Source: an uncultured Acidobacteriaceae bacterium (GTDB lineage: Bacteria > Acidobacteriota > Terriglobia > Terriglobales > Acidobacteriaceae). From it: a stretch of DNA of 64,000 nt. How positions within the stretch are numbered: position 1 is the first letter of the stretch; the number at the start of each line of letters is the position of its first letter. The position numbers and the translations under genes were made by a program. The stretch covers positions 1 to 64,000 of the forward strand of contig CAIVDV010000020.1 of NCBI GenBank assembly GCA_903904755.1, in the 5' to 3' direction. The notes beneath the pieces are model-generated. The model was not told the origin of the DNA and did no database searches. It worked only from the letters and a program-made list of their open reading frames with translations. Below are positions 590 through 28,402 of the stretch, in pieces.

Positions 590-665
590 AGGACAGGGAA
601 CAGGGGTCAGGGATCAGGGGTCAGGAAGCGGAGTTAGCGGCGTTAGCGGGGCTAGCGGAGTTAGG
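590..665. repeat. Short tandem-like G-rich repeats
   Basis: The spacer between ssb and the 82-residue membrane protein gene contains near-repeats of CAGGGGTCAGGGAT, followed by copies of a GTTAGCGG-like unit. The first part resembles G-rich repeat tracts at about 2574-2620, 23624-23697 and 26985-27032. I see no gene in it. Confidence 0.5.
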
Positions 666-2573: not shown

Positions 2574-2622
2574 GAGGGACCAGGGACGTAGGGACTGGGG
2601 ACTGGGTACAGGGGACAGGGAT
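2574..2622. repeat. G-rich GGGAC-type repeat tract
   Basis: Immediately beyond the stop codon of shikimate kinase there are repeated units of the form GGGAC plus two to four bases. Positions 2574-2595 are identical over 22 bases to 23646-23667, and 2584-2598 shares 15 bases with the tract near 27019-27033. It is non-coding. Confidence 0.7.
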
Positions 2623-2623
2623 G

Positions 2624-3184
2624 CTAAGCGGTGGGTGGGGCGAGTTGGAGGCGGTCGGCGAGGGCCTGGGCGGCGGCGCGGGGGGTGAGGTTGTCGACGG
2701 GCAGGGTGAGGTGGGCGAGGCGGTAGAGGGGGAGGCGGCGGAGGTAGCGGGCTTCGAGGTTGGCGCGGTCGGCGAGGACGGGGCGGACGGCGTCAGTGCC
2801 GGAGGTGCGGAGGAGGACGGTGTCGAAGGAGGCTTCGAGGTGGACCAGGCGGGTGGCGGGGTCCGAGAGGAGGAGGGCGCGGGTGCGCTCGTCTTCAATG
2901 GCTCCGCCGCCGAGGGCGAGGACGATGCGGCGCTCGGTGAGGAAGCGGGCGATGGTGATGTGCTCGAGCTGGCGGAAGTGGGATTCGCCATGGAGGCGGA
3001 AGATTTCTGCGATGGTGGTGCCGGCTGCGTGTTCGATTTCGCGGTCAACGTCGATGAATCGCCACCAAACGGAACGGGCGAGGATGCGGCCGACGGTGGA
3101 TTTGCCGGAGCCCATGAAGCCGGTGAGGACGACGCGGTGGGGGAAGCCTGGGAGGACGGGGCCGTGCGTGGTCGTCTCAGTCAT
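2624..3184 (-). CDS. aroK: Shikimate kinase
   Basis: This 186-residue enzyme phosphorylates shikimate at the 3-hydroxyl using ATP in chorismate synthesis. The Walker A loop is GFMGSGKST (residues 22-30). The shikimate-binding aspartate is in FIDVDREIE, and the glycine-rich LALGGGAIEDE segment and the LID arginine region around DAVRPVLADR follow. Length is slightly above the typical 170-180. Its start overlaps the upstream anti-sigma gene by eight bases, so it appears to be the third gene of an ECF sigma factor operon. That is an unusual setting for an aromatic amino acid gene. Confidence 0.95.
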   Translation of the reverse strand: MTETTTHGPVLPGFPHRVVLTGFMGSGKSTVGRILARSVWWRFIDVDREIEHAAGTTIAEIFRLHGESHFRQLEHITIARFLTERRIVLALGGGAIEDERTRALLLSDPATRLVHLEASFDTVLLRTSGTDAVRPVLADRANLEARYLRRLPLYRLAHLTLPVDNLTPRAAAQALADRLQLAPPTA

Positions 3185-23260: not shown

Positions 23261-23347
23261 GGCTTTGGTGATTCTAATCCTGAGACGTAGAGTGGTGGAA
23301 TGGGCCTGGCGCGATGGTTGTTGGGATGGCCGGGCTGGAGGTGGGAG

Positions 23348-23623
23348 ATGTGCCGGAATATACGGGTGCTGTTCAACTTCGAGCCGCCGGTGACGGATGC
23401 GGAGATTGCGGCTGCGGCCTTGCAGTATGTGCGCAAGGTGAGCGGTGTGGTGAAGCCGTCGAAGGCGAATGAAGCGGTGTTTCAGACGGCGGTGGCAGAG
23501 GTGACGCGGGTGACGGCGGAGCTGCTGGCAGGGCTGGAGACGACAGGCGCGAAGCGGACGCGGGAAGAGGAAGCGGCGAAGGCGAAGGCGCGGAATGTGG
23601 CGCGGTTTGGGGCGAGGGACTGA
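23348..23623 (+). CDS. DUF2277 family protein
   Basis: A 91-residue protein beginning MCRNIRVLFNFEPPVTDAEI, followed by AALQYVRKVSG and KPSKANEAVF. This matches the compact DUF2277 family, whose function is not known. It is soluble and mostly helical with a basic C-terminal helix. A longer frame from 23300 exists, but ATG 23348 has GGAGGTGGGAG directly upstream and begins exactly at the conserved MCRNI, so it is the right start. A G-rich repeat tract starts right after the stop. Confidence 0.9.
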   Translation: MCRNIRVLFNFEPPVTDAEIAAAALQYVRKVSGVVKPSKANEAVFQTAVAEVTRVTAELLAGLETTGAKRTREEEAAKAKARNVARFGARD

Positions 23624-23697
23624 GGGACTGAGGGACTAAGGGACTGAGGGACCAGGGACGTAGGGACCAGGAACATAGGGACCAGGGAGTGGGGATG
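23624..23697. repeat. GGGACT/GGGACC tandem repeat tract
   Basis: About nine units of a G-rich octamer-like motif (variants of AGGGACTG, AGGGACCA and AGGGACGT) fill the 74 bases between the DUF2277 stop and the next ribosome-binding site. Positions 23646-23667 are identical to 2574-2595. It is non-coding and could form G-rich structures. Confidence 0.8.
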
Positions 23698-23711
23698 GAG
23701 GAGAGGTGACT

Positions 23712-23990
23712 ATGAGAGAGATAGTGGCTTGGATTTTTGGGCTGGGGCTGGGCGGGAATGCTCTGCTGTTTGTGCCGCAGATATTGGCGGTGTGGCGGAA
23801 GAAGACGGATGAGGGCGTGAGCCTGGTGACGTTTGGGGGCTTCAGCGTGCTGCAGGTGGTGGGGATTGTGCATGGAGTGCTGGAGCACGATGCGAGCCTG
23901 ACCTGGGGGATGGCGGCGAGTTTGCTGACCTGCGGGACGGTGACGGGGCTGACGGTGTACTACCGGCTGCGGCGGCTGCGGGCTGCCTGA
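23712..23990 (+). CDS. SemiSWEET-like PQ-loop transporter
   Basis: A 92-residue membrane protein with three hydrophobic helices (about 4-22, 38-56 and 62-82) and the PQ motif in LLFVPQILAVWRKKTDEGVSL. This layout matches bacterial SemiSWEET proteins, which dimerise to form a sugar facilitator. The substrate here is unknown. GAGGAGAGG lies upstream of ATG 23712; a GTG two codons earlier is possible. A small membrane protein gene follows 17 bases later on the same strand. Confidence 0.83.
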   Translation: MREIVAWIFGLGLGGNALLFVPQILAVWRKKTDEGVSLVTFGGFSVLQVVGIVHGVLEHDASLTWGMAASLLTCGTVTGLTVYYRLRRLRAA

Positions 23991-26984: not shown

Positions 26985-27033
26985 GGCAGGGACATAGGGA
27001 CGTAGGGACATAGGGACTAAGGACGTAGGGACT
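26985..27033. repeat. G-rich GGGAC-type repeat tract downstream of deoA
   Basis: Units of AGGGACAT, AGGGACGT and AGGGACTA repeat just past the deoA stop and slightly into its final codons. It shares a 15-base core with the tract at 2584-2598. The G-rich strand is the plus strand although deoA is on the minus strand. Confidence 0.7.
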
Positions 27034-28402
27034 GGAGCCCGGAGGCGAGGTGGGCTTCGGCGGTGGGGCGGGTGAAGGTGGCGGAGACGAGGGGGGTGGG
27101 GGGGGGTGGGGTGGGGGACCAGGTGATGGAGTTGAGCAGGAGGGCCTGGGGCTCGTCGAGGAGGGCGGGGTGGGTGGCGTAGAGGGTGGCGAGGGGCTGG
27201 CCCTGGGTTACGTGGGCTCCGCGGCGGGCGTGGAAGAGGATGCCGGCGTGGGGATCGACGGGGGCCCCGGCCTTTTCGCGGCCGGCACCGGTGCGCTGGA
27301 CGGCCCAGCCGAGGGCGGTGGTGTCCATGGCGGCGATGTAGCCGGTTTGGGGGCTGGGGACGACGCGGGTTGCGCCGGGGCGGTGGAAGGCGGCGGGGTC
27401 GGCGAAGGGGGTGGTGTCGCCGCCGTGGGCCTGGACCATGGCGTAGAAGTGGGCGAGGGCTGAGCCGTCTGAGAGGGTGGTTTCGGCGAGGGTGTAGCCG
27501 GCTTCGGGGGTGTCGGCTTTGCCGCCGAGGTGGATCATCCATCCGGCGAGGATGAGGGAGAGTTGGCGGAGGTCTTCGCTGGCGGCGGGGCGTTCTCCGC
27601 GAAGCAGGGTGAGGGATTCTGCGATTTCAATCCAGTTGCCGGCGGCCTGGCCAAGGGGCTGGCTCATGTCGGTCATGAGGGCGACGGTGCGGGTTCCGGC
27701 GGCTTCGGCTGTTGAGACCATGAGGGCGGCGAGGTAGTCGGCCTGGGCGCGGTCACGGAGGAATGCGCCGGAGCCGGTTTTGACATCGAGGACGAGGCAG
27801 TCGAGGCCGGCGGCGAGTTTTTTGCTGAGGATGGAGGCGCAGATGAGGCCGGGGCTTTCGACGGTTCCGGTGCGGTCGCGGAGGGCGTAGAGGACGCGGT
27901 CGGCGGGGACGAGCGTGGGGGTCTGGCTGACGATGGAGCAGCCGGTTTTGTTGAGGACGGCTTCGAATTCCGGAAGGGTGAGGGCGGTGCGGTAGCCGGG
28001 GATGGACTCCAATTTATCCAGTGTGCCGCCAGTGTGGCCGAGGGCGCGGCCGGAGATCATGGGGACGCTGAGGCCGCAGGCGGCTGCGATGGGTGCGACG
28101 AGGAAGCTGGTTTTGTCGCCGACGCCGCCGGTGGAGTGCTTGTCGACGGCGACTTTGCCGAGGGCGGCGGGGGAGAACTTGTCGCCGGAGTCGCGCATGG
28201 CGACGGTGAGGGCGCGGATTTCGTCGAGGGCGAGGCCGTTGAGCCAGGCGGCCATGAGGAAGGCGGAGAGCTGCTCAAGGGGGATGGAGCCGGAGGCGGC
28301 GCCGGTGACGAGGTGGCGGATCTGGGGCTCGGAGAGGGTGCCCTTGTCGCGCTTGAGGCGGATGAGGTCGATGGTATGGATGGGGGCGTTTTGAAGGGAC
28401 AT
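27017..28402 (-). CDS. deoA: Thymidine/pyrimidine nucleoside phosphorylase
   Basis: A 461-residue enzyme that cleaves thymidine or other pyrimidine nucleosides with phosphate. The family signature is KHSTGGVGDKTSFLVAPIAA with the following SGRALGHTGGTLDKLESIPG, both phosphate and nucleoside binding. The N-terminal helical domain begins TIDLIRLKRDKGTLSEPQI, and the C-terminal domain with HARRGAHVTQGQPLATLYA is typical. The last ~40 residues are proline-rich and diverge, apparently encoded partly by the repeat-rich 3' end. It lies 21 bases downstream of cytidine deaminase, so the two form a pyrimidine salvage unit with nupC. Confidence 0.95.
   Translation of the reverse strand: MSLQNAPIHTIDLIRLKRDKGTLSEPQIRHLVTGAASGSIPLEQLSAFLMAAWLNGLALDEIRALTVAMRDSGDKFSPAALGKVAVDKHSTGGVGDKTSFLVAPIAAACGLSVPMISGRALGHTGGTLDKLESIPGYRTALTLPEFEAVLNKTGCSIVSQTPTLVPADRVLYALRDRTGTVESPGLICASILSKKLAAGLDCLVLDVKTGSGAFLRDRAQADYLAALMVSTAEAAGTRTVALMTDMSQPLGQAAGNWIEIAESLTLLRGERPAASEDLRQLSLILAGWMIHLGGKADTPEAGYTLAETTLSDGSALAHFYAMVQAHGGDTTPFADPAAFHRPGATRVVPSPQTGYIAAMDTTALGWAVQRTGAGREKAGAPVDPHAGILFHARRGAHVTQGQPLATLYATHPALLDEPQALLLNSITWSPTPPPPTPLVSATFTRPTAEAHLASGLQSLRP

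Follow-up and report, generated by a model that had tools for sequence, protein, structure and literature searches.

Cyanobacterial genomes carry dispersed short tandem repeats, the STRR heptamers, and the arrays that we analyse here are like them in this respect. G-rich heptamers are the subject of Rehm et al. (2015, PMC4692102), whose main text gives the units GGGAATC for Xanthomonas and GGGGA(C/T)T for Nostoc, places the repeats closer to the ORF on their 5' side, in whichever direction that ORF runs (a pattern for which it gives no cause), and reports few of them between divergent genes, with convergent pairs in 70 cases in Xcc. It finds neither a preference for the leading or lagging strand nor, in general, a link to mobile elements, and nowhere does this main text use the words S23, four-helix or intervening. 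A second described system is the intervening sequence (IVS) of 23S rRNA genes, which the sections of Warrier et al. (2016, PMC4990558) considered here present as an S23p ORF between inverted ends, sporadic in occurrence and thought to be horizontally acquired, with tandem heptamers in variable number upstream of the S23p ORF. A third is the TAACTGA direct repeat, reported in the sections of MacGregor (2015, PMC4679880) considered here from Beggiatoaceae, cyanobacteria and Bacteroidetes. In the literature covered, which lies largely outside subscription journals, nothing ties heptamer arrays to S23/IVP genes beyond the heptamers in Warrier et al. (2016).

Arrays in the window and strand composition

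The window, a stretch of 64,000 nucleotides from the genome of an uncultured Acidobacteriaceae bacterium (G000), holds GGGAC repeats at three sites (Table 1), and these are real: the pattern GGGAC-N2-4-GGGAC matches 12 times against an expectation of 1.17, and none of 100 shuffles reaches 12. All 12 matches lie on the plus strand, in agreement with the original prediction that the G-rich strand is plus throughout, and the 22 bases that it held to be shared by 2574-2595 and 23646-23667 are exactly identical. The spacing of the GGGAC units is 7 to 9, mostly 7 and 8, so the arrays show the period-7 GGG signature of the G-rich heptamer class. Some details of the prediction change. Its main array is a repeat as described, with a start at 23616, eight bases before the 23624 it had given, and the DUF2277 stop codon therefore lies inside the array. 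The looser GGGAC relative that it saw at 590-640 turns out to be two other unit families, at 593-625 and 627-664.

Table 1. Arrays, neighbouring genes and hairpin copies; positions without an L number are those of the window.
Feature	Position	Strand	Detail
GGGAC array	2574..2620	+	core 2576-2602, 4 units, degenerate to 2620
GGGAC array	23614..23688	+	core 23616-23667, 7 units, degenerate to 23688
GGGAC array	26988..27033	+	core 26989-27017, degenerate to 27033
CAGGG[A/G]TC-like 7-mer array	593..625	+	~51 bp from stop of 82-residue ORF (677)
TAGCGG-type 9-mer array	627..664	+	12 bp from stop of 82-residue ORF (677)
DUF2277 gene	23300..23623	+	upstream neighbour of 23614-23688 array
deoA (pyrimidine nucleoside phosphorylase)	27017..28402	-	neighbour of 26988-27033 array
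aroK (shikimate kinase)	2624..3184	-	neighbour of 2574-2620 array
Hairpin copies	L016 8665, 13940, 14831; L020 8928; L025 1653		13 other intergenic sites

The arrays reach into the genes beside them. The C-terminus of DUF2277 reads RFGARD* here, with RD* within the array, and RFGA* in several relatives; the last residues and the stop of deoA are encoded by the 26988-27033 array. The 2574-2620 array is flanked on one side by the aroK stop (2624, minus) and on the other by the upstream end of 1486-2568, a minus gene that we take from its sequence motifs to be CtaB-like and whose start at 2568 is our own, uncertain gene call. At minus genes, both copies (2576 and 26989) have a stop on one side and, on the other, the start of the following minus gene. 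The ORF at 23706-23990 is presumably SemiSWEET-like, again judged by sequence motifs.

To place the window in its genome, we count a three-unit pattern over the whole assembly (4.22 Mb, 83 contigs) and find 162 matches, 45 on the plus and 117 on the minus strand. We examine 30 arrays of at least 3 units, taken from 20 fetched stretches and the window, with genes called by a small codon model made for this analysis; these stretches hold 132 of the 162 matches, so some arrays of the genome are unseen. In 29/30 of these arrays, including one (L012) with hardly any skew, the G-rich strand coincides with the locally G-skewed one, and the sole array against the skew is the second, short arm of a GGGAC-type IVP unit described below. 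GC skew within the window reaches up to 0.38. The third-position skew of coding strands in window positions 1-44000 is +0.57 for plus genes and -0.57 for minus genes, so that G is favoured on the plus strand whichever strand carries the gene. With nine G and three C in the pattern and a skew near 0.3, composition alone can give the strand bias and an insertion rule is not needed: strand composition is at least one source of the plus-strand rule. The G000 stretches contain two further array types that also follow the skew (10/10 and 4/4), and in the weakly skewed relative G022 agreement is found for 17/22 arrays. Across phyla, among the matches listed, 60/126 arrays lie on the G-skewed strand, which is no bias. 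The replication-strand origin raised in the prediction is thus in keeping with the arrays of this genome and, as a general rule of insertion, is ruled out by the pan-bacterial count.

Polarity of the arrays

All arrays had been said to lie directly after a stop codon. This is half of the rule, and the constant feature is a gene boundary, either a stop or a start, close to the 5' edge of the G-rich strand. In intergenic arrays this 5' edge is the edge nearer to a gene, whatever the gene's direction, in 25/29 cases in G000, in 16/17 in G022 and, among the matches listed, in 87/107 in a pan-bacterial sample. For that sample one genome per species was scanned for GGGACTA repeats (at least 118 stretches); its phyla include, among the matches listed, Acidobacteria, Cyanobacteria, Planctomycetes, Proteobacteria, Desulfuromonadales, Chloroflexi, Verrucomicrobia, Gemmatimonadetes and others. 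The polarity counts leave out 19 sample arrays without a gene on one side, as well as arrays inside called genes (1 in G000, 5 in G022). With 1/30 of the G000 arrays inside a called gene and the others intergenic, placement is that of the class of Rehm et al. (2015). For convergent gene pairs, in which both array edges face stops, the 5' edge is the closer one in 26/31 pan-bacterial cases (among the matches listed), and polarity is therefore a property of the repeat and not of start or stop signals. After a stop the G-rich strand is the sense strand, and ahead of a start it is the antisense one. Within the window, array 26989 breaks the rule (its 5' edge is 78 bp from a gene and its 3' edge overlaps deoA), array 2576 has its 5' edge 7 bp from an uncertain start, and array 23616 overlaps a stop. 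Many arrays of G022 (L039-L058) begin 5-8 nt past the stop, with a similar linker of the RAAAGCA kind before GGGAC.

We also considered decay of the units as a sign of growth from one end and dropped it: sums over the four outward units show no significant difference between sides (3' higher to 5' higher, 16:9, 9:10 and 43:32, the pan-bacterial part comprising 86 arrays). Contiguous degenerate units lean to the 3' side (12:4, 11:3 and 32:16), but the 5' side is often coding sequence and this count is therefore not used as evidence.

A dispersed intergenic hairpin, (C/T)GAGC-N3-5-GCTC(G/A), occurs just 3' of a GGGAC array in 5 of its 18 copies (Table 1), and some other copies come after other G-rich arrays. 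As a defining part of the element, the form TCGAGC-NNN-GCTCGA is rejected, only those 5/18 intergenic copies being near an array. Further downstream of arrays in L010, L016, L017, L024 and L025 there is another dispersed palindrome, ATCCCCGGTC...GACCGGGGCACCCG in type, and a similar ...GATGGGGCACCCG comes after DUF2277 in L213.

S23/IVP genes between inverted arrays

With 36 units, L018 7018-7302 is the largest of the 30 arrays. Together with a short array of opposite orientation (L018 6585-6613) it encloses a small gene, which lies between lysS and a ymdB-like gene. The protein of this small gene belongs to PF05635, the 23S rRNA intervening sequence protein (S23/IVP), with E 2.7e-36, and the G000 IVP matches PDB 2gsc (XCC0516) with E 2.8e-23. 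At the same junction in G022 there is also an IVP gene, enclosed by arrays of another unit. (The names lysS, ymdB, pheS, pheT, carA, carB, accB and accC for genes at insertion sites are our assignments, made from sequence motifs.) G000 has three IVP genes, none of them on the window's contig, and at the window's own arrays no PF05635 ORF between inverted arms is found; L018 is where, judged by eye, such a unit is present in the same genome. The other two IVP genes of G000, L253 on contig C40 and L254 on contig C9, have arms of CAGAGAT and of TTAGCG, which resemble the window's units at 593-625 and at 627-664, respectively.

We quantify the framing of IVP genes by scoring the 150 bases before each gene (170 in a set of 20 loci) against the reverse complement of those after it, with a threshold score of at least 30. 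Loci are the best-scoring PF05635 match of each genome, except for the 20 further ones, which were hand-picked from a 61-genome list (two of them, L270 and L271, because arrays had already been seen beside them); 2 of 31 ORFs from relatives were dropped for a flank that was short or contained N, and 2 of 30 multi-phylum loci for want of a usable ORF or flank. The threshold is reached in 57/106 IVP loci overall and not reached in 49/106. By set, it is reached by 14/29 genes of relatives, 14/20 of the picked ones, 18/28 from array-bearing genomes of many phyla (among the matches listed) and 11/29 from the order of Wenzhouxiangella. Mismatched pairs of flanks reach it in 9/812 (29 relatives), 33/756 (28 multi-phylum loci) and 9/812 cases (29 of the Wenzhouxiangella order), and control genes of similar size in 3/279. 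The score can miss real arms: L247, a copy of the L018 element, gets 11 although its arms are plain by eye.

The unit of the arms varies among loci (TAGGCAT, CAGTTCT, GTTTCGA, GTGTGAA, TTAGCG, GGGACTA, GGGATTC and more) and often matches between the two arms of a locus. Where the arms are clearly tandem, their period is 7 in 30/33 arms of the multi-phylum set and 23/26 of the Wenzhouxiangella order, and in four genomes of that order one site has convergent GGGA(A/T)TC arms around IVP genes. The neighbours of IVP genes are co-directional with them on both sides in 59/75 cases (47/96 for genes of similar size in the G000 stretches), the gap beside the gene is at most 200 bases upstream in 66/75 and downstream in 70/75, and by eye the arms extend up to the neighbouring genes. 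Units of the form array-IVP-array thus exist in the window's genome and in many phyla.

Comparison of gene junctions among relatives shows what these sites look like with and without the unit. At lysS-ymdB, both genes are adjacent in 15/30 loci, with a 4-nt ATGA overlap in nine of the 15 (G003-G007, G011, G013, G014 and G016). The same junction holds array-IVP-array in G000 and G022, convergent arrays without an IVP gene in G001 (where the end of the lysS protein is read from the array), a lone array without IVP in G009, 457 bp with an array beside the ymdB start in G002, and an 82-bp insert without a clear array in G010. An insertion at lysS with an IVP that groups with these is also found in L156 (Acidobacteriaceae) and L160 (Acidobacteria). 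At pheS-pheT, where both genes are found in 29/30 loci, 8 loci overlap by 4 nt and 5/29 have an IVP gene (G000, G004, G011, G012 and G022), the one in G004 with no array before it. G002 has a 46-bp short array remnant there with the unit of G011's arm, and the gaps of the remaining 15 loci, 0-419 bp, are mostly of other kinds; an IVP is also found at pheS-pheT in G009 (L272). In a tree of the IVPs, with low resolution at many forks, one clade has 6/7 rows at pheS-pheT and another 4/4 at lysS, and the IVPs of a third shared site (L241 and L255, with a common upstream gene) stand apart. Where some relatives have a 4-nt overlap at these two junctions, others have a lone array, paired arrays or an IVP unit. 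Turning to the window, the main array separates DUF2277 from the next gene, two genes that share an ATGA overlap in G011 and G002, and no GGGAC array follows deoA in the relatives compared; at both of the junctions compared, then, the window has an array where relatives have none. Some distant relatives (L352, L353 and L358) have inserts of other kinds at pheS-pheT, with palindromes of the GCCGAG type. In several Proteobacteria (L363, L366, L373, L308 and L314) IVP genes occur at what appears to be the carA-carB junction, which would make this one household junction used across families.

Partners of the arrays are one-sided. Of 126 pan-bacterial arrays, 90 had flanks long enough for a search, and among the matches listed an inverted partner within 700 bp is found on the 3' side in 24/90 and on the 5' side in 1/90, with direct copies in 5 and 6 on the two sides. 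The 24 pairs (among the matches listed) enclose 17-234 bp without an ORF of more than 51 residues in 19 cases, about 390 bp with an IVP ORF in 2, and 338-605 bp without one in 3. Inverted partners are present for 2/30 arrays in G000 (both arms of one unit) and 2/20 in G022, and most lone arrays in G000, G022 and the pan-bacterial sample have no partner within 700 bp. A recognised IVP ORF lies within 600 bp of 5/178 arrays, on the 3' side in 5/5 (among the matches listed). At the level of genomes, PF05635 occurs in 40/61 (G000 included), in 14/16 of those with arrays against 26/45 of those without (P = 0.036, a weak link). It occurs in 41 of 50 array-bearing sample genomes and is absent from 9 (among the matches listed); two of the 50 owe their inclusion to an IVP ORF seen beforehand.

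Probable origin of the lone arrays, and known systems

Taken together, we consider it probable that the window arrays are one-arm remnants of elements of the form [7/8-mer array]-S23/IVP gene (PF05635)-[array inverted] that insert at operon gene junctions, and we infer that lone arrays in general derive from array-IVP-array elements. The mobile-repeat origin suggested in the original prediction is thereby supported in a form it had not foreseen, with arrays as arms or relics of S23/IVP elements, in which the link to lone arrays is the inferred part. The element would insert upstream of the start of the downstream gene, and the upstream gene would then end inside or before the array. The transcript would fold back on the inverted arms, as in the 23S rRNA IVS where RNase III cuts, so that insertion would presumably do little harm. 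Once the ORF and one of the arms had been lost, a lone array would be left, changing by slippage. The 5' edge of an array would correspond to the outer end of the element and its 3' side to the interior; a left arm would have its G strand in sense after a stop, and a right arm would have it in antisense upstream of a start. In this strongly skewed genome, the arm to last would be the one with its G-rich strand on the G-skewed strand, and the surviving copies would therefore probably look alike on the plus strand. The G-rich strand would always be plus in the window because the plus gene DUF2277 has an array of the left-arm type and the minus genes have arrays of the right-arm type. Movement might be helped by the IVP protein or come about through homologous recombination within the conserved genes on either side, both of which are guesses. 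The arms would stay alike through template switching between them. Against an inserting element it counts that arms of the same unit could also come from palindrome correction around a sessile gene.

How much of this would arise without any element? The arrays could be independent G-rich simple repeats, made by polymerase slippage in neutral gaps and kept or tolerated for quadruplexes of four tracts as in the class of Rehm et al. (2015), with IVP genes merely gathering such repeats. We regard this as unlikely. It fits arrays that, as in Rehm et al. (2015), are tandem, variable in length, mostly intergenic, beside stops and seldom between divergent genes; it fits the absence of the deoA and DUF2277 arrays from relatives, as fast-evolving repeats would have it, and the missing partner of most lone arrays. 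However, slippage gives neither a polarity in convergent pairs (26/31) nor inverted partners on one side (24 against 1 of 90; both counts among the matches listed), and it fails on the same unit standing in both inverted IVP arms, in many differing units, G-poor ones included.

We give still less credence to the arrays being regulatory or protective RNA, in which selection fixes the orientation of a G-rich structure that shields the mRNA after the stop and of a C-rich one that is tolerated ahead of the ribosome-binding site. The G strand is indeed in sense after stops and in antisense before starts. The quadruplexes that the original prediction thought possible are also seen in silico: with quadruplexes allowed, ViennaRNA predicts that the G-rich strands fold in this way, at -9.8 to -21.8 kcal/mol for the G strand against 0 to -4.9 for the C strand. 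Quadruplex formation in CD spectroscopy is among the marks of the class of Rehm et al. (2015), and for the present arrays it is a prediction. The arrays are not, however, conserved at the orthologous junctions examined, and many IVP arms that are equally placed are not G-rich. Transposition of REP type, or another single-strand route by an HUH (Y1) transposase yielding a replication-strand bias, is highly improbable, for although 29/30 G000 arrays follow the skew, G000 has 3 Y1_Tnp matches and the hairpin TCGAGC-NNN-GCTCGA lies 3' of 5 arrays, the bias is explicable by composition and absent elsewhere (60/126, among the matches listed), 5/18 intergenic hairpins lie within 150 bp of an array, the arrays are not palindromic, and Y1_Tnp occurs in 47/61 genomes against arrays in 16/61, with no visible link of a Y1/RAYT transposase to the arrays.

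The proposed origin of the lone arrays from S23/IVP elements extends to a broader proposal that we advance tentatively: S23/IVP intervening sequences may be a pan-bacterial, undescribed parasite that invades household operon junctions (lysS-ymdB, pheS-pheT, carA-carB and accB-accC), returns to them across genera, keeps its inverted heptamer arms alike by concerted change, and leaves behind the dispersed heptamer/G-quadruplex repeats that many bacteria are known to carry. If so, two unexplained things, dispersed heptamer repeats and the S23/IVP family, become one. The repeats gain an origin and a polarity rule, and IVP proteins gain a genetic context outside rRNA, with ends, insertion sites and empty sites. 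Lone arrays would then predict former element sites, and junctions could be compared between strains.

Among described repeats, those of REP/BIME type with their RAYTs are similar, in the part of that literature covered, in being dispersed, extragenic and perhaps tied to a protein gene; unlike REP palindromes, the window arrays are tandem and have no hairpin of their own, and the window's contig has none of the 3 Y1_Tnp matches of G000, which are on C15, C9 and C57. The TAACTGA repeats, as far as the sections of MacGregor (2015, PMC4679880) considered here describe them, are likewise intergenic heptamers, patchy across phyla and with no known origin, but they are not G-rich and lie mostly just upstream of starts. 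In contrast to the 23S rRNA IVS of Warrier et al. (2016, PMC4990558), in the sections considered, the units here lie between protein genes, with heptamer arrays as arms and lone arrays proposed as remnants; the window arrays themselves lie between protein genes and not in an rRNA gene. Closest are the repeats in the main text of Rehm et al. (2015), which are likewise tandem G3 heptamers, intergenic, with a 5'-ORF polarity and convergent pairs. The arrays of this genome differ from them in a strand bias that follows the skew (29/30) and in the element we propose, and the convergent GGGA(A/T)TC arms around IVP genes in the order of Wenzhouxiangella are of the type of the Xanthomonas repeats in that text.
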